Shown: positions 1 through 7,210 of the stretch, one piece after another
How positions within the stretch are numbered: the first letter of the stretch is position 1
Layout: the number at the start of each line of letters is the position of its first letter
From: Rhodospirillales bacterium
Lineage (GTDB): Bacteria > Pseudomonadota > Alphaproteobacteria > Rhodospirillales_A > Casp-alpha2
Assembly: GCA_016763915.1 (NCBI GenBank)
Contig: JAESSX010000146.1
Coordinates: 1 to 7,210, forward strand
Length of the DNA: 7,210 nt
Reading direction: 5' to 3'
The notes under the pieces: model-generated
Told to the model about the DNA's origin: nothing
The model's database searches: none
The model's input: only the letters and a program-made list of their open reading frames with translations
Program-made: the position numbers and the translations under genes

Positions 1-147
1 GAAGTCGTCGTCGGAAGCGGCATCAGGGTAACCGCGGCACCTGCCGCGCTCTCTAGTTCCTCCAGGCCCTCTGGCTCCTCCAGGCCCTCGTTCTCCTCCA
101 AGCCCTCGTCCTCCTCCAAGCCCTCGACGCCCGGGGACAAGGCGTGA
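1..147 (+). CDS. 3' end of an unidentified gene directly upstream of fliP (FliO candidate), with a Ser/Pro-repeat tail
   Basis: Only the last 48 codons are in the window. The frame is open from base 1 and ends at TGA 145-147. The visible protein begins EVVVGSGIRVTAAPAAL and ends in four copies of a hexapeptide S-S-(R/K)-P-S-x followed by PGDKA, a low-complexity, basic, probably disordered tail. Its stop overlaps the GTG start of fliP in a GTGA arrangement, which implies one operon and translational coupling. In many bacteria the gene before fliP is fliO, a small membrane protein that helps assemble the FliP/Q/R export gate and often has a poorly conserved C-terminus. That makes FliO the first candidate, but the identification rests on position only, since no FliO-specific motif is visible. 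FliN is less likely, because the typical hydrophobic/charged FliN C-terminus is absent. Confidence 0.6.
   Translation, partial: EVVVGSGIRVTAAPAALSSSSRPSGSSRPSFSSKPSSSSKPSTPGDKA
58..129 (+). repeat. Four tandem 18-bp coding repeats (hexapeptide SS(R/K)PSx)
   Basis: Four consecutive 18-bp units start at 58, 76, 94 and 112. They share the pattern TCCTCCARGCCCTC followed by four variable bases and are exactly in frame with the gene ending at 147. They encode SSRPSG, SSRPSF, SSKPSS and SSKPST. Units 1-2 have AGG (Arg) and units 3-4 have AAG (Lys), suggesting stepwise duplication. The array could vary in copy number between strains without breaking the frame. Confidence 0.85.
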
Positions 148-932
148 CCCCGGCCCGGCGCCGTTCGCTAAAGTCCGCCGTCGTCCTCTTCGCCGGGGCC
201 GCGACGGCCTGCCTTGCCTTAAGCGCCGTGTTGATGTGGACGGCCGGCCCCGCCGCCGCGCAAAGCCTTTCGCTGAACTTAGGGGGCGACGGCGACGGCG
301 GCGAATCGACGGCCCGCGTGATCCAGATCATCGCCCTGGTCACGGTGCTCAGCCTGGCGCCGTCGATCCTGGTCATGATGACGTCGTTCATACGCATCAT
401 GGTGGTGCTGTCGTTCCTGCGCACGGCGCTGGGCACCCAGCAGACGCCGCCCAATCAGGTGCTGGTCAGCCTAGCGCTGTTTCTGACCCTGTTCGTGATG
501 ATGCCGACCTTCGAGACAGCCTTCGAAAATGGCATCAAGCCGCTGATCGAGGGCGACATCGAAGAAGCCGAGGCCTTCAAGCGCACCGTCCAGCCGTTCC
601 GCGTGTTCATGTCGTCCCATGTGCGCGAGCAGGACGTCGCCCTGTTCGTCGAAATCGCAAAAGTTCCCGAGGCAGAAGTCCGCAAAGAAATGCCGATGCG
701 GGTATTGATCCCGGCGTTCATGATATCGGAACTGCGCCGCGCCTTTGAAATCGGCTTTCTGGTCTTCGTGCCGTTTCTGATTATCGACATGGTGGTGGCG
801 TCGGTGCTGATGGCCATGGGCATGATGATGCTGCCGCCGATCATCATAGCGCTGCCGTTCAAGATCATTTTCTTCGTGCTGGTTGACGGCTGGTTCATGA
901 TCGTCGGATCGCTGGTGCGCAGCTTCGGCTGA
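144..932 (+). CDS. fliP: Flagellar biosynthetic protein FliP (export-gate subunit)
   Basis: FliP forms, with FliQ and FliR, the membrane core of the flagellar type III export gate through which rod, hook and filament proteins pass. The 262-residue product begins at GTG 144, with GGGGA at 133-137 as a likely ribosome-binding site, and overlaps the upstream stop. This start gives a long N-terminal signal peptide (basic MTPARRRSLK, hydrophobic to about residue 35, likely cleaved after AAA at 39), as FliP proteins usually have; starting at the ATG at 234 would remove most of it. Hallmarks follow in order: a first membrane segment with APSILVMMTSFIRI at about 72-85, then FLRTALGTQQTPPNQVLVSL at about 91-110, a second membrane segment ending in MMPTF, a periplasmic loop at about 125-180, then RVLIPAFMISELRRAFEIGF, and two C-terminal membrane segments including MMMLPP. 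Family, length and domain order are normal and the call is secure. The next gene converges on it after 29 bp, with no obvious hairpin terminator between them. Confidence 0.97.
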   Translation: MTPARRRSLKSAVVLFAGAATACLALSAVLMWTAGPAAAQSLSLNLGGDGDGGESTARVIQIIALVTVLSLAPSILVMMTSFIRIMVVLSFLRTALGTQQTPPNQVLVSLALFLTLFVMMPTFETAFENGIKPLIEGDIEEAEAFKRTVQPFRVFMSSHVREQDVALFVEIAKVPEAEVRKEMPMRVLIPAFMISELRRAFEIGFLVFVPFLIIDMVVASVLMAMGMMMLPPIIIALPFKIIFFVLVDGWFMIVGSLVRSFG

Positions 933-961
933 CTGTTCCGTTCAAATCCAATTGATTCCTG

Positions 962-1384
962 TCAGAGCCAACCAGCCGTTTTAAGGGGACTCCTATTTTC
1001 GACAAGATCGGCAATGGTATATTTTCCGAGCGCGTCCAGGAAAGCTCTGCGGGCCTCATCCAGCACATTCCTTAGCTTGCACTTCTGCGCGAGCGGACAA
1101 CGCGGTTCAAAGCACTCAATGATTTTCATATCGTGTTCCATGATTTGCACGACGTTGGCGACCGTGATCTCCGCCGCCGGGCGTCCCAGACGGATGCCGC
1201 CGCCTTTACCGCGCACGGTTTCCAGGAACCCTTTTGTCGACATGGTGTGAACCACCTTGGTCAGGTGATTGCGGGGAATGTCACATTTTTCCGTAATTTC
1301 GGAAATATTCGTAAGCCGGTCCGAATTCGCGGCCGTGAAAATCAATACCCGAAGTGCGTTATCTGTGAATTTTGTCAGGCGCAT
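962..1384 (-). CDS. nsrR: NsrR, Rrf2-family [4Fe-4S] nitric-oxide-sensing repressor
   Basis: NsrR represses nitrosative-stress and nitrite-reduction genes and lets go of DNA when NO attacks its iron-sulfur cluster. I start it at ATG 1382-1384 (140 residues, MRLTKFTDNALRVLIF) because this aligns with the family N-terminus; a GTG at 1391-1393 would add three residues. Residues 1-60 form the winged helix, with TEKCDIPRNHLTKVV in the recognition-helix region and the wing RGKGGGIRLGRP at about 58-69. The cluster region carries C91, C96 and C102 (C-x4-C-x5-C), the same spacing and numbering as E. coli NsrR, and D8 stands where Asp is the fourth ligand in Streptomyces NsrR. The C-terminal YTIADLVENRSPL is also typical of NsrR and separates it from IscR and RirA. 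C34 is an extra cysteine. The gene is divergent from the multicopper oxidase-nirK operon, whose promoter contains an NsrR-like operator, so that operon is its likely target. Confidence 0.93.
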   Translation of the reverse strand: MRLTKFTDNALRVLIFTAANSDRLTNISEITEKCDIPRNHLTKVVHTMSTKGFLETVRGKGGGIRLGRPAAEITVANVVQIMEHDMKIIECFEPRCPLAQKCKLRNVLDEARRAFLDALGKYTIADLVENRSPLKTAGWL

Positions 1385-1432
1385 GGAGATCACTCTGTAA
1401 ATTTGACGTTATTTTCTAAAGCCTTACCGAAG

Positions 1433-1438
1433 AGTATA
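1433..1438 (-). promoter_or_regulatory. Candidate -10 element of nsrR
   Basis: On the minus strand this reads TATACT, five of six matches to TATAAT. It lies about 50 bases upstream of the nsrR ATG, which would give a 5' leader of about 40 bases. At 17-bp spacing the -35 position is a T-run with poor match to TTGACA, so the promoter would be weak or need help. This is a pattern match only. Confidence 0.3.
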
Positions 1439-1487
1439 CATCGCTGGCCCACATGAAAAAAATACGCTGATTTATTTTTACACGGAC

Positions 1488-1516
1488 TTGACAGTTTTTC
1501 ACCCGCTCCATAAAGT
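1488..1516 (+). promoter_or_regulatory. Sigma70-type promoter of the multicopper oxidase-cytochrome-nirK operon
   Basis: A perfect -35 hexamer TTGACA (1488-1493) is followed after exactly 17 bp by TAAAGT (1511-1516), four of six matches to the -10 consensus. Transcription would start near 1523, giving a leader of about 30 bases before the ATG at 1553. The -10 lies inside the left arm of the NsrR-like palindrome, so a bound repressor would block polymerase directly. A consensus -35 with ideal spacing and an overlapping operator fits a promoter that is strong when derepressed and otherwise kept shut. Confidence 0.7.
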
Positions 1517-1540
1517 GCATTTCAAATACATCTTATGGAG
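1506..1540 (+). promoter_or_regulatory. NsrR operator within a 35-bp imperfect palindrome
   Basis: The left arm is CTCCATAAAGTGCATTT (1506-1522), the centre is C1523, and the right arm is AAATACATCTTATGGAG (1524-1540). The arms match at 14 of 17 positions. The inner 23 bp (1512-1534; AAAGTGCATTT, C, AAATACATCTT) fit the known NsrR site pattern of two 11-bp half-sites, AAGATGYATTT-like, around one central base. The outer arms CTCCATAA and TTATGGAG add a perfect 8-bp match not required by the known NsrR consensus. The palindrome overlaps the -10 element on its left and includes the GGAG ribosome-binding motif on its right. Confidence 0.85.
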
Positions 1541-1545
1541 TGATT

Positions 1546-1560
1546 ATGGTCCATGTCTAA
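1546..1560 (+). other. Possible five-codon leader ORF (Met-Val-His-Val-stop) overlapping the oxidase start
   Basis: ATG 1546-1548, GTC, CAT, GTC, TAA 1558-1560 forms a complete tiny ORF. Its ATG sits five bases after GGAG (1537-1540), an ideal Shine-Dalgarno distance, whereas the ATG of the oxidase at 1553 lies 12 bases away, which is long. The mini-ORF runs out of frame across the oxidase start and terminates three bases past its ATG codon, so ribosomes stopping there could re-initiate by a short backward slide. Whether it is translated cannot be told from sequence. Confidence 0.35.
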
Positions 1561-2614
1561 GAAAATTACCACCATGCTGGTTGCTGCGTTTTTCGTTTGG
1601 ATCAACCCGAACGCATCGAGCGCCGCCGAACGTGTATTTAACCTGACCATAGACGAGGTCGCCATCAATGTGGCGCCGGACCTTAAGTACAAGGTTTTCG
1701 GTTTCAACCGCCAAGTTCCCGGCCCGCTGATACATGTGCAGGAAGGCGACGACCTTACCATCAACGTCACCAACAACACCGCCATGCCGCACACTATTCA
1801 CTGGCACGGTTTTCATCAGTTGAACAACTGGCGCAACGATGGCGTGCCCGGAATAACTCAGAAAGACATCAAACCCGGCGAGACCTACACCTACACCATG
1901 AAAGCCGACCGCATCGGCACGCTTTGGTATCACTGTCACGTGAACGTCAACGAACACGTCGGCATCCGCGGCATGTGGGGGCCGATTGTGGTTGCGCCCA
2001 AGACCCCCCTGCCCATTGAGACCGAGGTCACCAAGGACGTCATCATGATGATGTCCACCTGGGAAAGCGTCCATGCCAGCAAGTATGGCGAGGGCGCCGT
2101 TCCCGGCACCATCGAGGATTATTTCTCCATCAATGCGCGCTCTTTTCCATCGACCCAGCCGATCAGAATGAAAACCGGCGATGTCGTTCGCGTTCGCTTT
2201 ATCGGGGCCGGTGGCGCCATTCACGCTATGCATTCCCACGGTCACGACATGCTGATCACCCACAAGGATGGATTGCCGCTTACCGCCCCCTATAGCGTCG
2301 ATACTATTTTGATCGGACCGGGTGAGCGCTATGACGCAATTATTCGCGCCAACCATGACGAGGGCCGTTTCATCTTCCACGACCATGTGGACAAACACGT
2401 TACCGCTGGCGGCAAGTTCCCCGGCGGGCCGATCACCGTCATGGAATACGCCGGAACGCCCATGGACGATTGGTATGTCTGGAAGGACATCAAGTATGAC
2501 GCCGATTTCTTCTATAGCGAATCGATGAAGAAAGGTTTCGGCATGTTTGCCAACCCCGCCTTCGTCGGCGAGACCATCAAGCGTAAACGTCGTCGCCGGA
2601 CAAGGGCCAAATAA
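1553..2614 (+). CDS. ncgA: Two-domain (type C-like) multicopper oxidase, NcgA-like
   Basis: This is a periplasmic two-cupredoxin-domain copper oxidase of 353 residues, expected to work as a trimer with trinuclear copper centres between subunits. A Sec-type signal peptide covers about residues 1-25 (MSKKITTMLVAAFFVW, cleavage near ASSAAE). In domain 1, H80-T-I-H83-W-H85-G and WYH127-C128-H129, with H135 and M141, supply a type 1 copper (H80, C128, H135, M141) and ligands for types 2 and 3 (H83, H85, H127, H129). Domain 2 has H224-x2-H227-S-H229-G-H231 and H276-D277-H278: the trinuclear-centre histidines remain, but Asp replaces the type 1 cysteine. A single type 1 site in domain 1 matches the Nitrosomonas europaea blue copper oxidase class encoded beside nirK. 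Its substrate is not settled. The start is fixed, since an in-frame stop (TGA 1541-1543) lies just upstream. The C-terminus is a strongly basic KRKRRRRTRAK tail. The next gene begins two bases after its stop codon. Confidence 0.9.
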   Translation: MSKKITTMLVAAFFVWINPNASSAAERVFNLTIDEVAINVAPDLKYKVFGFNRQVPGPLIHVQEGDDLTINVTNNTAMPHTIHWHGFHQLNNWRNDGVPGITQKDIKPGETYTYTMKADRIGTLWYHCHVNVNEHVGIRGMWGPIVVAPKTPLPIETEVTKDVIMMMSTWESVHASKYGEGAVPGTIEDYFSINARSFPSTQPIRMKTGDVVRVRFIGAGGAIHAMHSHGHDMLITHKDGLPLTAPYSVDTILIGPGERYDAIIRANHDEGRFIFHDHVDKHVTAGGKFPGGPITVMEYAGTPMDDWYVWKDIKYDADFFYSESMKKGFGMFANPAFVGETIKRKRRRRTRAK

Positions 2615-2615
2615 A

Positions 2616-3296
2616 GTGAAAAAACTGGCTATAGCCCTGGCGCTGGGGATGGCGGCGTCGCCCGCCCTGGCGATCGAGCATGGATCGGCCTTGTTGCAGG
2701 AGCGTTGCGCCGCCTGTCACGACCTGACCGGCCCCGCCGCCAAAAGCCTAACCGAGCTAAAAGCGCGCAAAGGCCCGGACCTGTTTTATGCGGGCAACAA
2801 GTACCGCGCGGACTGGCTGGCCGGTTGGTTGCGAAAACCGTCGCGCATCCGTCCGGCAGGGGTGTTTTACCTCGACCACATCAAACCCGGCGCCAAGCAG
2901 GACGAGATCGACGGCACCACCCTGAAGCCGCATCTGGCGCTAAACGCCGATGATGCCGCAACGGCGGCAAAAGCCCTGATGGGGCTCAAAGCCAATGGCG
3001 AACTGTTACAAACGAAGCCTTTTGTAACCGGCCCCTCGCCATTGGGTGAAATGAGTTTCGACAAATTTTACGGCTGCATGGCGTGCCATGAGATTGAGCC
3101 CGGTTTCGGCGGTAAAACGGGGCCGGAGGTTTATACCGCCGGGCGGCGATTAGCGCCTGAATTCATGGTCAGCTTCATCCGCAACCCTCAGGCCTGGAAC
3201 CCCAAGGGCCTGATGCCCAACAAGCATGTGCCCGAGGTCAACATTCCGAAGCTGGTGAACTTCATGCTCGAACTGGCCAAGGAGGACTGGAAATGA
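2616..3296 (+). CDS. ncgB: Periplasmic diheme cytochrome c, NcgB-like
   Basis: This is a 226-residue secreted cytochrome c with two heme-attachment motifs, CAACH (C31, C34, H35) and CMACH (C154, C157, H158), one in each of two class I-like domains. I choose GTG 2616 as start: it lies one base after the oxidase stop, has AAGGG at 2602-2606 as ribosome-binding site, and directly precedes a clean signal peptide, KKLAIALALGMAASPALA, cut after about residue 19. An ATG at 2547 inside the oxidase gene would put 23 polar residues before it. Heme 2 has a likely axial methionine in GLMP (M200). For heme 1 the usual MP pattern appears as TTLKPHLALN (about 101-110), with no methionine, so its sixth ligand is uncertain. 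By position it is expected to pass electrons within the NirK/multicopper oxidase system. The ncgB symbol rests on gene order and is less certain than the cytochrome call. Its stop overlaps the next gene's ATG (ATGA). Confidence 0.9.
   Translation: MKKLAIALALGMAASPALAIEHGSALLQERCAACHDLTGPAAKSLTELKARKGPDLFYAGNKYRADWLAGWLRKPSRIRPAGVFYLDHIKPGAKQDEIDGTTLKPHLALNADDAATAAKALMGLKANGELLQTKPFVTGPSPLGEMSFDKFYGCMACHEIEPGFGGKTGPEVYTAGRRLAPEFMVSFIRNPQAWNPKGLMPNKHVPEVNIPKLVNFMLELAKEDWK
3005..3028 (+). repeat. Perfect 8-bp inverted repeat inside the diheme cytochrome gene
   Basis: GTTACAAA (3005-3012) and TTTGTAAC (3021-3028) are exact inverted copies separated by eight bases. They lie in the linker between the two heme domains. 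The spacing would suit either an RNA hairpin or a dimeric-protein site, but no T-run follows, so it is not an intrinsic terminator. It may be chance. Confidence 0.4.
3279..3285 (+). promoter_or_regulatory. Strong ribosome-binding site for the monoheme cytochrome
   Basis: AAGGAGG, a near-complete anti-16S complement, lies seven bases before ATG 3293 and inside the last codons of the upstream cytochrome gene. It fixes the start and, with the ATGA overlap, points to coupled translation with strong independent initiation. Confidence 0.85.
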
Positions 3297-3646
3297 GGAG
3301 CTTGAGCGCATTTCTTCTGGCGTTGTTCGTGCTGTCCGGCCCCGTGTCGGCCGCCGAAAGCGCCAGGGACAAATATAATGCGTACTGCGTTCAGTGCCAC
3401 GGCCTTCAGGGTAACGGTATGGGCCTGAACATCCGCGACATGTCGGTGCAGCCGCGCGACCATACGGACGCCAAGTCCATGAGCGGGCGCAGCGACGAAG
3501 AACTTTTCAAGGTCATCAAGGAAGGCGGTCTGGCGATCAGCAAATCGGTGCTGATGCCGGCATGGCAAGGCACCCTTTCGGATCAGGAAATCAACGATCT
3601 CGTGGGTTTCCTGCGGGACTTGTGCAAATGCAAGTTCGGAAAATGA
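3293..3646 (+). CDS. ncgC: Small periplasmic monoheme class I cytochrome c, NcgC-like
   Basis: This 117-residue protein has a signal peptide, MRSLSAFLLALFVLSGPVSA, cleaved after about residue 20, leaving a mature cytochrome of roughly 97 residues. The heme motif is CVQCH (C32, C35, H36), followed by GxxGNGMG, which is common in cytochrome c modules that follow CxxCHG. The likely axial methionine is M88 in LMPAW, and the fold closes with the usual C-terminal helix (LSDQEINDLVGFLRDL). It is a plausible soluble electron donor to NirK, encoded 42 bp downstream. Two extra cysteines (C111 and C113, in LCKCKFGK) lie outside the heme motif at the C-terminus, which is unusual for a small cytochrome c. 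Start and ribosome-binding site are clear, and the gene overlaps the upstream stop by four bases. The ncgC symbol follows gene order. Confidence 0.9.
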   Translation: MRSLSAFLLALFVLSGPVSAAESARDKYNAYCVQCHGLQGNGMGLNIRDMSVQPRDHTDAKSMSGRSDEELFKVIKEGGLAISKSVLMPAWQGTLSDQEINDLVGFLRDLCKCKFGK

Positions 3647-3674
3647 ATCGCCGTGAACAATAAAAACTTAAACT

Positions 3675-3680
3675 AGGAGA
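3675..3680 (+). promoter_or_regulatory. Ribosome-binding site of nirK
   Basis: AGGAGA lies eight bases before ATG 3689 in the 42-bp AT-rich gap after the monoheme cytochrome gene. The gap shows no convincing promoter or NsrR-like palindrome of its own, so nirK is most simply read from the operon promoter upstream of the oxidase gene. Confidence 0.8.
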
Positions 3681-3688
3681 AACGCAAA

Positions 3689-4636
3689 ATGAATATAGCT
3701 AAAATATCGTTGTTGGCGGGGGCTGCGTTCGTGTTATCGGCTCTCATCGGCGCGCCACAGGCATCGGCGAAAGTGGTCAAAGTGACCATGACCGCGATGG
3801 AAAACGATGTCGTCATCGACAACAAAGGCACCAAGTATCCGGCATGGACCTTTGACGGCGCCATCCCCGGAAAAGTGGTTCGGGTTACGGAAGGCGACAT
3901 CATTGAGTTCACCTTGATTAACCCCAAGGAAAATAAAAACTCCCATTCCATGGATTTCCATGCCGCCGAAGTCGATGTGCTGAAAGAATTTGCCGAGGTC
4001 AAACCGGGCGGAACCAAGAAGTTCACGTTCCATGCCAAACGTGCCGGCGTCTATATGTACCACTGCGGCGCAAGCGTGATGGTGCAGCACATCGCACGCG
4101 GCATGTACGGGACCATCATTGTCGATCCCAAGGAATACACGAAAGACTTCCCCAAGCCGGATCGTGAGTATGTGCTCATCCAGCAACAATTCTTCCCCGA
4201 TGCCAAAAACTATAAGGCCATGCTGGAGAACGCCGGTTGGACCAATTCTTTAATCAACGGAAAAATTTTCCATTACGATCCGGTGCATGATCCCAAAGCC
4301 ACCAAGGTTCTGATGTCCAAACCCGGCGAGCGTGTACGTATCTTTTTCATCAACGCCAACGTCAATATGCCGGTCGCCCTGCATCCGATCGCGGGCATCT
4401 GGGACCGGGTCTATCCCAATGGCAGCCCGAAAAATGTGCTGTATGACATGCAAACATACGGCGTTCCGGTCGCCGGGGCAGCGGCCTTCGATATTGTCTC
4501 TCCGGCGGACAGGCCAACAAATGTTGCCATCGTCGATCACACCATGAGCGCGGCCCTGCGCGGCGCCATCACGGTTCTGATGAACCGGCCGGACGCTGAC
4601 CCGACTCTGGGCAAGGGTGATAAAATCCTTCCCTAA
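3689..4636 (+). CDS. nirK: Copper-containing nitrite reductase NirK (nitrifier-type)
   Basis: NirK reduces nitrite to nitric oxide (EC 1.7.2.1) in the periplasm as a homotrimer. The 315-residue product has a Sec-type signal peptide cut after about residue 27 (QASA). Type 1 copper ligands are H86, C126, H134 and M139 (NSH-SMDFH, YHCG, QHIARGM). Type 2 ligands are H91, H125 and H284 (VDHTMS), the last in the second cupredoxin domain. The catalytic pair is present as D89 in SMDFHAA and H232 in LHPIAG. All copper ligands are in place, so it should be active. Two features differ from the Alcaligenes/Achromobacter type: the C126-H134 spacing is one residue shorter, and the second His of the usual GGHGD is replaced (AGIWD). 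Phrases such as INGKIFHYDPVHDP and VLYDMQTYGV recall the Nitrosomonas europaea enzyme from memory. Multicopper oxidases can look similar, but the H-x4-H and HCG patterns, with no trinuclear-centre motif, decide for NirK. It is the last gene before the terminator. Confidence 0.96.
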   Translation: MNIAKISLLAGAAFVLSALIGAPQASAKVVKVTMTAMENDVVIDNKGTKYPAWTFDGAIPGKVVRVTEGDIIEFTLINPKENKNSHSMDFHAAEVDVLKEFAEVKPGGTKKFTFHAKRAGVYMYHCGASVMVQHIARGMYGTIIVDPKEYTKDFPKPDREYVLIQQQFFPDAKNYKAMLENAGWTNSLINGKIFHYDPVHDPKATKVLMSKPGERVRIFFINANVNMPVALHPIAGIWDRVYPNGSPKNVLYDMQTYGVPVAGAAAFDIVSPADRPTNVAIVDHTMSAALRGAITVLMNRPDADPTLGKGDKILP

Positions 4637-4655
4637 GGACGCAGTCCACACAATT

Positions 4656-4691
4656 AGGCTGGAGAGGCATTTCGCCCCTCCAGCCTTTTTT
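4656..4691 (+). terminator. Rho-independent terminator of the nirK operon
   Basis: AGGCTGGAG (4656-4664) pairs perfectly with CTCCAGCCT (4678-4686). After one A/C mismatch, GGC (4666-4668) pairs with GCC (4674-4676) around a five-base loop, ATTTC. Six T follow from 4686 to 4691. It starts 19 bases after the nirK stop, is GC-rich and well formed, and separates the operon from the convergent TPR gene. The opposite strand has only a weak T-tract, so it is mainly a rightward terminator. Confidence 0.93.
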
Positions 4692-4710
4692 GTGACCGTC
4701 TCACGACGCC

Positions 4711-7210
4711 TTAGGCCTGCGGCGATGGTCTGGTCTGTTGTTCGGGGGCCGGTTTTTCGGCATCCGGGGCCGCCGGTTTCGGGCTCACCGCCTTGGCGGG
4801 CTCCGCCGGCATCAGGTCACTCAGGTTTTCCTTCTTCAGCCGTTCGCGGTAGGCGGCCATGAAGGTCTGGAAATTTTCCGCCACCTTGACCCGGGCCCGC
4901 ACCAGTTCAGGGTCCAGCAGCCCCAGGGACGTGGGCGACACGATCAGCCGGAAGGCGTCATTCAGGCTGCCTTTCGCCATGGCGGCGGAGTAGTCGCTGC
5001 GCGCCCGGCTGAGGGCGCGTTCATTGCCGCTGAGGGTCAATGCAATGGCGTAATTAAGGACGTACGCCGCCTGTTGCTCATTCAGCGGCTTGCCCGGTTT
5101 GGCATCCGATTCGCGGATCAGGTTACCAAGCGACTGTGACGTCTTGGACCAGTTTCTGGCGCTCCAGAAAATCTCGGTCCTGAGAAGCTCCGCATCGCGG
5201 CTTTTATCTCCCTTGAGCACCGCCAGCGCCTGCTCGCGCTGTTTCAGGCCGATCAAGGCCTTGGCCCGAAGATGCCGGCGTTTCGTCGACAGGGCTTCGG
5301 GCATACCGGACGTCTGCGTTTCATCCAGCGCCTTCAGGGCCTCGGCATATTGACGGGCCAGGATATTCACCAGCGTCAGTTGCGCGCCGACCCGGGCCTT
5401 TTCCACGCCCTGGAGCCGATAGCGGACCTGCGAGCGCAGCAAGGCCGCGGCACGGTCGAGAAGATCGACGCCGACCAGCCGGTCGGCCAGTTTTCGGATC
5501 ATCTCGTCGCCTTGCACGCCGGCCGGGGTCAGTTCCTTGAATTCGTCGTACAAGGCGATCGCGGTCACCGGCTGCAACGTATCGGCGGCGTCTTCCAGAT
5601 ACATGCGCGAAAAGACGTCGGACATCTGCAGCGTCACCTGCGGCGCTTGCGCATGGGAGCGGAAATAGGTCGCGGCCTGGCGCAGCCTGTCCAGCCCCTT
5701 GCGGTATTGGCCTTCTTCCAGATACAGCGTTCCGAGACGCCGCAGCAGGTTGAATTCGAATTCGTCGCCGCGCCAGGCGAAGCGGATTCCCTCAAGGTCC
5801 CGGATCGCCTCGGCGCGCGGCATCTGTTTCATCTTCCTGAGCAGTTCCATGCGCGCGACAATGGCCTTGGGGCGGCTCGGCCGATGGGCGCCGTCGCGAA
5901 CGGATTCCCACTTGGCGATGGCGGCGTCAAAGTCGCCGGACAGTTCCAGGACCCGCCCTTCTTCGTAATCCAGCAGACTGGTTTCCTCGGGCGAAAGGGT
6001 ATCCAGGCGAAGGATTTCGAGGAAATGGCGGGCCTGCTTGATATCGCCGATCTTGAGCGCCGCGTCGACGATCAATTGTCCTAACGGGACTTTGATGGCT
6101 TTCGGATAGGGCCGGATGATGGGGCCGGTGCGCTTCAGAATCGGCGCCGCGGCGGTGATGTCGCCGACGGCGGCCCGGGCGGCGGCCCGCCAGAAAGCGG
6201 CTTCATCGCTCCATTGCAAATCCTTATGAACAAAGTCTTTATCGGCTTCGATATAGCGGCCCAACATGAACTTGGCGGCCCCTCTCAACACCCGATATTC
6301 GGGGTCCTGGTCGATTTCGGCGCGGCCCCGGGCGGCTTCGCGCAAAACGGCAAGGGCCTCGGCATGGAAGCCGTTGGAAAAATAAAACCGCGCCAGATTG
6401 AGCTGTGCCGCCTCGCGCGCGGCGTTTTTCGATTTGCTGATGGTGTTCAGCAGCTTGTATTTCCGGGGCAGGAAGGAACTGATGCTCTTAACCTTCCATG
6501 GATCCAGGTCGAGGACACGGCTCAGCGGCTTCATGGCGGCCAGGCGGCGATTCGCTTCGGCCGCGGCCGACACCGCGGAAATTTTCAATTCTCCGCCGCT
6601 TGTCACCTCAACCCCTTCGCGCAACGGGCGCACCCGGATGTCGTCTATACGCGGCTGAATGACGATGCCCTGGGAGGTCGGCAGAAAGCGAATCTGCGGA
6701 TAGACATATTCCAGACCAATGCCGTGGCCGAGGGGCAGAAGCGGCACGATGACCAGATTATCGCCGACCTCGGGGTCGGTGATGCCGATGGGCTTTCCGG
6801 GTTCGGCGACCGGAACGAACAGCCGCGCGCCGACCGGTGAATCCGGCTGCGCATTGACCGTCAAAGGCGTTTGCGCGTTGATCGGCTGTTTGCGGAAATC
6901 GAGAAGCCAGGCCAGGCCGTCGCGCCGAACGGACGGATTAATGCCGGCCACGGTCGACAGCCTGAGAACCGTCGCCTGGGTCGTGCCCATTTGCTCGACG
7001 CCCTTGATGATATTGCGGCCCGCTTCGCGCAATTGCGCGATGTCAATCGCCGTCGGCTTGTCGAAGACCACCCACAATATACCGGCACGGCGGAAGATGG
7101 CGGCGCCGACCGGCTCGCTCCAGTCAAAACGCAGCGTCACCGCATCGGCGGGCGGGCCGGAGAGGGCCGGGGACTGGACGCTGACCTGAGAAGGCATCGG
7201 CGGCAAAGGC
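4711..7210 (-). CDS. Large TPR-repeat protein of unknown function (N-terminus outside the window)
   Basis: The frame runs from the right edge to TAA at 4711-4713, with at least 832 codons and no stop at the edge. A TTG at 7204-7206 and an ATG at 7195-7197 are possible starts, but neither is followed by a signal peptide and the frame is open upstream, so the true start is probably outside the window. Numbering from the TTG, residues about 20-106 form a beta-rich module (VTLRFDWSEPVGAAIFRRAG, LWVVFDKP, WLLDFRKQ) that resembles AMIN-like envelope domains; this is a weak resemblance. Residues 110-215 are also beta-rich. From about 262 to 780 there are repeated helical pairs of TPR type, such as LARFYFSNGFHAEALAVL, EEGRVLELSGDFDAAI, LGTLYLEEGQYRKGLDRL and AKALIGLKQREQALAVL. 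The tail is Pro/Ala/Lys-rich. A role as an envelope scaffold is plausible, and nearness to fliP makes a flagellar link possible but unproven. Confidence 0.8.
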   Translation of the reverse strand, partial: PLPPMPSQVSVQSPALSGPPADAVTLRFDWSEPVGAAIFRRAGILWVVFDKPTAIDIAQLREAGRNIIKGVEQMGTTQATVLRLSTVAGINPSVRRDGLAWLLDFRKQPINAQTPLTVNAQPDSPVGARLFVPVAEPGKPIGITDPEVGDNLVIVPLLPLGHGIGLEYVYPQIRFLPTSQGIVIQPRIDDIRVRPLREGVEVTSGGELKISAVSAAAEANRRLAAMKPLSRVLDLDPWKVKSISSFLPRKYKLLNTISKSKNAAREAAQLNLARFYFSNGFHAEALAVLREAARGRAEIDQDPEYRVLRGAAKFMLGRYIEADKDFVHKDLQWSDEAAFWRAAARAAVGDITAAAPILKRTGPIIRPYPKAIKVPLGQLIVDAALKIGDIKQARHFLEILRLDTLSPEETSLLDYEEGRVLELSGDFDAAIAKWESVRDGAHRPSRPKAIVARMELLRKMKQMPRAEAIRDLEGIRFAWRGDEFEFNLLRRLGTLYLEEGQYRKGLDRLRQAATYFRSHAQAPQVTLQMSDVFSRMYLEDAADTLQPVTAIALYDEFKELTPAGVQGDEMIRKLADRLVGVDLLDRAAALLRSQVRYRLQGVEKARVGAQLTLVNILARQYAEALKALDETQTSGMPEALSTKRRHLRAKALIGLKQREQALAVLKGDKSRDAELLRTEIFWSARNWSKTSQSLGNLIRESDAKPGKPLNEQQAAYVLNYAIALTLSGNERALSRARSDYSAAMAKGSLNDAFRLIVSPTSLGLLDPELVRARVKVAENFQTFMAAYRERLKKENLSDLMPAEPAKAVSPKPAAPDAEKPAPEQQTRPSPQA

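Follow-up and report, generated by a model that had tools for sequence, protein, structure and literature searches.

The stretch of DNA surveyed in this study (hereafter the window; 7,210 nucleotides, positions 1 to 7,210 of the forward strand of contig JAESSX010000146.1 in assembly GCA_016763915.1) comes from a Rhodospirillales bacterium. Between the flagellar gene fliP and a gene encoding a TPR-containing protein it carries a cassette made up of a divergent nsrR gene and the genes ncgA-ncgB-ncgC-nirK, with the metal ligands of the encoded proteins intact. This is probably a member of the NsrR-type-controlled ncgABC-nirK cassettes, gained by the bacterium through insertion into the short fliP-TPR spacer. 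The following features were recognized.

144 to 932, plus strand: fliP, host gene forming the left border of the insertion site (TIGR01103, 296 bits; cut-off 217)
962 to 1384, minus strand: nsrR, divergent from the operon, with its ATG at 1384 (a longer listed open reading frame begins at GTG 1393)
1488 to 1516, plus strand: predicted sigma-70-type promoter TTGACA-17-TAAAGT, 10 of 12 consensus positions, 5' of ncgABC-nirK
1512 to 1534, plus strand: predicted NsrR-type operator, an 11-1-11 inverted repeat overlapping the -10 hexamer
1553 to 2614, plus strand: ncgA, two-domain multicopper oxidase
2616 to 3296, plus strand: ncgB, diheme cytochrome c, GTG start
3293 to 3646, plus strand: ncgC, monoheme cytochrome c
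3689 to 4636, plus strand: nirK, cassette-type copper nitrite reductase
4656 to 4686, plus strand: predicted intrinsic terminator 3' of nirK, a stem-loop followed by six T (inverted repeat I7)
4711 to 7209, minus strand: TPR-containing gene with TPR domains, host gene forming the right border, convergent with fliP and cut by the window's end

All five cassette reading frames are open, in agreement with an earlier note, made from the sequence alone, that had described these genes between fliP and the TPR gene. The tight spacing claimed there was re-read from the window: ncgA and ncgB are separated by one base, ncgB and ncgC overlap by four bases and 42 bp lie between ncgC and nirK. The four genes thus have the same-strand, closely packed order of the cassette, with an NsrR-family gene adjoining and an NsrR-type operator at the promoter. 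The cassette genes have a GC content of 53-60% (61-75% at third codon positions, GC3), compared with 62-63% (GC3 77-85%) for fliP and the TPR gene, a comparison made with no significance test. The kin of these two border genes bear out the alphaproteobacterial host that the note had proposed.

NcgA has the domains Cu-oxidase_3/_2, and its nearest solved structures are 2zwn (570 bits) and 3g5w (404 bits), the latter of which we take to be the blue copper oxidase of Nitrosomonas europaea. It carries the copper-ligand motifs of a two-domain multicopper oxidase (HWH, HCHVNVNEHVGIRGM, HSH/HGH and HDH), and its single cysteine (Cys 128) lies within the HCH motif of domain 1 as the type-1 copper cysteine. 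NcgB contains cytochrome c domains with two CxxCH motifs, at 31 and 154, and NcgC (PF13442) has one, at 32. Beyond its haem cysteine pair, the C-terminus of NcgC bears Cys-Lys-Cys (Cys 111 and 113), a possible metal site. Sec-like signal peptides were recognized by eye at the N-termini of all four operon proteins, and NcgA, NcgB and NcgC are probably exported.

NirK likewise has the domains Cu-oxidase_3/_2 and is nearest among solved structures to 4kns (366 bits; runner-up 168), presumably the NirK of N. europaea. The residues that we take to be the type 1 ligands (H86, C126, H134 and M139), the type 2 ligands (H91, H125 and H284) and the catalytic Asp and His (D89 and H232) are all present, and all nine are invariant in an alignment of 17. 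The note had also set this gene set apart from classic alphaproteobacterial nirK with nirV. NirK scores 173 bits against TIGR02376, below the cut-off of 296, and no nirV-like gene was found among the seven window genes scanned, which does not fit the classic nirK-nirV type.

The regulator and its predicted operator

The nsrR product matches PF02082 (Rrf2) with 116 bits, and its best match in the Protein Data Bank (PDB) is NsrR 5n07. Asp8 and the clustered cysteines 91, 96 and 102 are present, as required of the ligands of a [4Fe-4S] cluster, in which Asp8 presumably takes part as it does in NsrR. Several relatives carry the name 'nitric oxide-sensitive' in one source, and the protein is probably a repressor that senses nitric oxide (NO).

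The predicted operator has three mismatches to the NsrR 23-mer, which is the ytfE site of Escherichia coli (PMC5320621), and none of 200 dinucleotide shuffles was as good. Against the consensus gATGyAT-N5-ATrCATc (PMC1274295), its right half fits fully and its left half has two mismatches. The promoter that it overlaps is a consensus match only and weak when taken alone, with three such sites in the region against 2.0 expected. At the other end of the operon, the segment 4646-4694 has a folding energy of -27.4 kcal/mol (z -7.9), which none of 200 shuffles equalled, although a simple terminator scan missed this terminator.

The operator was also sought in the relatives, in a stretch of 360 bp spanning the start of ncgA in each of 66 copies, including that of the window, with 2179 tiles of the same loci as controls; these tiles are mostly coding DNA, so that their composition is unmatched. 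An NsrR-type operator with at most five mismatches was found in 26 of the 66 copies compared with none of the 2179 tiles, and with at most six mismatches in 38 copies compared with five tiles. Nine of the 26 operator-bearing copies are of the Nitrotoga type, without which the counts become 17/57 (at most five) and 29/57 (at most six). Mononucleotide shuffling gave 0/100 matches as good for 25 of the 26 and 1/100 for the remaining one. Taken together with the predicted operator over the promoter on the ncgA side, which backs the note's claim of NsrR control, these sequence comparisons support the operon being under NsrR-type control, in which NsrR would bind the operator.

The divergent nsrR is less constant than the four-gene set, having been found by tblastn with the window NsrR in seven of the 51 quartet loci with 1.5 kb 5' of ncgA, and the operator is often kept at loci where no nearby nsrR turned up. 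In a tree of NsrR sequences (few columns), the window and locus L002 share a clade apart from the cassette NsrRs of Gamma- and Zetaproteobacteria, a tentative hint that the regulator may have been recruited separately. An NsrR site for N. europaea nirK has already been predicted (PMC1274295). Wider conservation of the operator 5' of ncgA was not met in the available parts of the literature consulted, which is no proof of its absence from print. Being kept across several classes, the operator offers a sequence handle for NO-responsive nitrite reduction.

The probable insertion site and the spread of the cassette

In the window, 3778 bp lie between the stop codons of fliP, which is intact, and of the TPR gene, which is open to the window's end. 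The TPR gene itself is widespread: of 297 genomes of the order, 239 contain a match at E<=1e-100. In all 33 relatives whose spacer was read (both gene ends in one fetched locus), fliP and the TPR gene are convergent with no cassette gene between them. The aligned ends are at most 700 bp apart in 20 of these. In the other 13, which include ten Magnetovibrio kin, they are separated by 1-4 kb, and other genes lie between in all seven of these read. Twelve further genomes have both matches on one contig with the spacer unread (by coordinates, 22-38 bp in two and 1.3-3.3 kb in ten). In the close kin G176, whose FliP and TPR proteins are 85% and 73-75% identical to those of the window, the two stop codons are 33 bp apart, and in G285 they are 72 bp apart. 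G274, the nearest kin by TPR (83% identical), is without such a NirK. Among the 48 genomes of the kin family, only four matches to the window NirK type were found, on other contigs or more than 0.5 Mb from fliP.

Other alphaproteobacterial copies of the cassette occupy other sites. It lies 5' of an MmgE/PrpD gene in L001 (one side readable), adjoins an aminotransferase gene in L002 and adjoins an MFS gene in L003 (one side readable). G001, the genome of L001, belongs to another family and keeps fliP and the TPR gene together, 157 bp apart. Identity to the window proteins is 91% for its NirK, 66% for its FliP and 38% for its TPR, whereas in the Magnetovibrio genome G003 the corresponding values are 81% for NirK and 50% for TPR; the closer cassette thus belongs to the host whose TPR protein is less similar. 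Sister placement of the window and G001 is rejected by the TPR tree (p 5.7e-4) and by a FliP tree rooted on Gamma- and Betaproteobacteria (p 1.6e-5). A further empty site, corresponding to the position of the L001 cassette, was sought in G692, G688 and G690; these have the hydantoinase gene (78-89%) and not the other L001 neighbours, so that none could be read. Since this flanking gene of L001 is 89% identical in a member of the same family, the L001 contig is probably no stray.

The cassette is also rare. A NirK of the cassette kind (E<=1e-60) was found in six of 297 genomes in the order of Magnetovibrio, five of the six being of other types, in one of 385 genomes of the class (the centre genome itself, hence 0/384 others) and in one of the 11 genomes of the G001 family, namely G001; as genome completeness was not told, these counts are lower bounds. 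Given the empty fliP-TPR spacer, the other sites in other Alphaproteobacteria and this rarity, horizontal gain is likely from the sequence comparisons, which favours the transfer that the note had suggested. The empty spacer in kin makes this locus a clean candidate case of recent gain.

A NirK alignment run against species genomes gave 176 confirmed relatives, the best 80 of which form the locus set for all counts out of 80. The quartet ncgA-B-C-nirK was observed in 61 of these 80 loci, and its order in 55 of the 65 having at least 3.3 kb 5' of nirK, so that the comparison of gene order called for by the note shows a recurrent set and no mere chance arrangement. Quartet loci span the Alpha-, Zeta-, Gamma- and Betaproteobacteria and the Nitrospirae, with carriers including, by title, Rhodospirillaceae, Magnetovibrio, Mariprofundaceae, Gallionella, Nitrotoga, Rugosibacter, Methylomonas, Chromatiales and Nitrospirae. 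Nitrotoga accounts for nine of the 80 locus titles and an uncultured Nitrosomonadales for one, while 70 name no nitrifier, indicating that nirK with ncgABC in a metagenome signals by itself neither nitrification nor full denitrification. Although usually presented as a trait of nitrifiers, the gene set is a module of wide occurrence.

The ten roomy loci without the quartet comprise one from Nitrospirae and nine from Zetaproteobacteria (L004, L005, L006, L009, L017, L024, L054, L064 and L069), eight of the latter retaining ncgBC-nirK; L024 and L054 each carry nirK twice, with a separate ncgABC set close by. A rearranged cassette, nirK-ncgB-ncgC-ncgA-nsrR on a single strand, occurs in L120-L123 (genomes G116, G123, G130 and G205; 4/48 genomes of the window's kin family), with no operator 5' of ncgA and a weak one (6-7 mismatches) 5' of nirK, their first gene. 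A third alphaproteobacterial type, L124 (genome G286), has a NirK 50% identical to that of the window, the canonical order and a divergent nsrR with a near-perfect palindrome between. NnrS scored above cut-off in eight of ten alphaproteobacterial genomes and is uninformative, because kin without the cassette have it too. Directly 5' of fliP, at 55-130 of the window, a repeated CTCCTCCAGGCCCTC-like unit was noticed by eye.

NirK and NcgA trees

Trees of NirK (89 rows) and NcgA (68 rows) were rooted at the midpoint. The only nitrifiers in them were N. europaea (4kns, 3g5w) and the Nitrotoga type, with no sequence of Nitrosococcus, Nitrobacter or comammox among the rows. In the NirK tree the window groups with L001 (100/97) and these two with L002 and L003 (100/97), from genomes named Rhodospirillaceae or Magnetovibrio. 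This alphaproteobacterial clade joins 16 Zetaproteobacteria rows, its sister group (100/96), while 4kns and G286 fall outside the remaining rows. By the approximately unbiased (AU) test, one clade of the window NirK clade with 4kns is rejected (p 6.9e-5), as is one with ten Nitrotoga-type rows (p 2.4e-32). For groups chosen after seeing the loci, p was 0.025 with the G116 type and 1.6e-45 with the G116 type plus G286. In the NcgA tree an alphaproteobacterial clade of three (100/99) lies within a set of two Zetaproteobacteria and eleven Gammaproteobacteria rows (99/96), with the window far from 3g5w. L124 sits on long branches in both trees, joining 4kns for NirK and 3g5w for NcgA.

A nitrifier lineage of the window NirK and NcgA is not supported among the nitrifiers sampled, given that both N. 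europaea (4kns, 3g5w) and the Nitrotoga-type rows group elsewhere. The 'nitrifier-type' label of the note is thus right for the layout, which matches Nitrosomonas, and does not extend to the sequences, which belong to another branch that iron oxidisers and many further bacteria share; the grouping with nitrifiers that the note put forward as a check did not appear, NirK and NcgA of the window belonging to a clade of Rhodospirillales whose allies are Zeta- and Gammaproteobacteria. On these trees, the source appears to be the Rhodospirillales/Zetaproteobacteria/Gammaproteobacteria branch and not the sampled ammonia or nitrite oxidisers. Being rooted at the midpoint, the trees give no direction for the old exchange between the classes.

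Proposed role, alternatives and known systems

We propose that NsrR, bearing its Fe-S cluster, would occupy the operator across the -10 box, holding the operon off until NO damages the cluster and releases the repressor. The four operon proteins would then cooperate in the periplasm, where NcgB and NcgC would supply the copper enzymes with electrons drawn from the cytochrome bc1 pool. NirK would reduce nitrite to NO, and NcgA, with oxygen as its acceptor, would keep free NO and electron pressure low, perhaps through oxidation of NO. Together they would let the cell withstand nitrite and NO when oxygen is low, and would not serve growth by denitrification; export, electron route, NcgA substrate, purpose and operator occupancy are all inferred. 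In N. europaea, nirK together with ncgABC confers nitrite tolerance and nirK without ncgABC is harmful (PMC5080386), while the role of ncgCBA is described there as not fully known (PMC6967387). Multicopper oxidase has been counted among the suspected sources of NO (PMC2844404), and oxidation of NO to nitrite has been proposed as a possible activity of N. europaea NirK (cited in PMC10999283). A more speculative and unlikely extension is that ncgABC-nirK is a self-sufficient plug-in module for NO handling, landing in spacers between convergent genes with its own operator and terminator so as to work at once in a new host, and adopted by whichever NsrR the host supplies, the place of the regulator varying while the operator stays; NcgA would then be a periplasmic NO oxidase closing a nitrite-NO loop with NirK.

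Several observations weigh against the horizontal gain and NsrR control favoured here. The window is a single assembly in which a mis-join is possible, and the fliP-TPR junction of G274 falls in an assembly gap. A strict conflict between host and cassette, sought with the rooted FliP tree, was not found, as a window nearer to the G001 family than to Magnetovibrio kin was not rejected (p 0.43); the TPR tree was dropped for this purpose, three carriers being too few for conflict. No integrase or transposase was found among the seven window genes, no pair of border repeats stands out and the tRNA scan was empty, which does not fit a genomic island with its own integrase; the Rfam scan was empty as well. 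No carrier emerged from viral contigs, where eleven pattern matches included no relative, or from plasmids, which gave no match at 1e-60. As for control, 28 of the 66 ncgA copies match the operator poorly (at least seven mismatches), and the NCBIfam models for NsrR (134 bits; cut-off 182) and RirA (133 bits; cut-off 193) do not separate.

Vertical descent, with the cassette ancestral in Rhodospirillales and lost in most lineages, would explain why the alphaproteobacterial copies form one clade (with the window, four members by NirK and three by NcgA) and accords with the rooted FliP tree, which is compatible with a host order matching the NirK order. It is distinctly unlikely given the scarcity in order, class and G001 family, the different chromosomal sites with 33 of 33 read spacers empty, and a G001 NirK so much more similar to that of the window than its FliP. 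Movement from an ammonia- or nitrite-oxidising bacterium into an alphaproteobacterium is highly improbable: N. europaea does have the same gene set under NsrR control (PMC4940428, PMC5080386) and NirK is nearest to 4kns among solved structures, but the NirK tree parts the window from both 4kns and the Nitrotoga rows, and NcgA is also far from 3g5w.

On the functional side, energy-conserving low-oxygen denitrification, in which NirK would be a respiratory nitrite reductase and NcgA a side oxidase, is rather unlikely. The catalytic ligands are kept, the operon includes cytochromes c and several carriers come from microaerophilic groups, whereas the NsrR-type site at the promoter, the conserved oxidase partner and the nitrite tolerance told for N. 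europaea (PMC5080386) speak the other way, none of them decisively. Overall, tolerance is the role that we favour for the module, ahead of respiration. Alphaproteobacteria commonly have RirA, and a RirA-like iron sensor, making the operon answer to iron instead of NO, would suit the equal model scores; it is very unlikely in view of the NsrR-type operator predicted over the promoter and kept 5' of ncgA in several classes, the best PDB match to NsrR and the names of the relatives.

As the cluster has been described in Zetaproteobacteria (PMC3603346) and in the alphaproteobacterial nitrifier Nitrobacter (PMC5080386), it is already in print and known; what is new is the host branch, with a clear landing site. 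Another published NirK clade brings together comammox, Proteobacteria that do not nitrify and a few ammonia oxidisers (PMC10999283). The window resembles ncgABC-nirK of N. europaea in gene set, NsrR-family regulator, two-domain oxidase and NirK type (PMC4940428, PMC5080386, PMC6967387) and differs from it in sequence branch, 4kns lying outside and a one-clade tree being rejected. The nirK-ncgABC of Zetaproteobacteria from a Loihi iron mat (PMC3603346) belongs to the sister group of the alphaproteobacterial NirK clade, although nine of the ten roomy loci without the quartet are zetaproteobacterial. Nitrobacter winogradskyi shares an alphaproteobacterial, here nitrifying, host and the same gene names; its cluster is linked to quorum sensing (PMC5080386), and its sequences were not among the rows of the trees. 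The rearranged cassette of G116, G123, G130 and G205 has the same five gene families in genomes from the family of the kin G176, but differs in gene order, in a NirK 59-61% identical and in a separate NirK branch. Lastly, the closest solved relative of the window NcgA, 2zwn, is named a two-domain laccase and pairs in the NcgA tree with the cassette NcgA of L063 (100/99), suggesting that the 2zwn enzyme may itself stem from an ncgABC-nirK operon.

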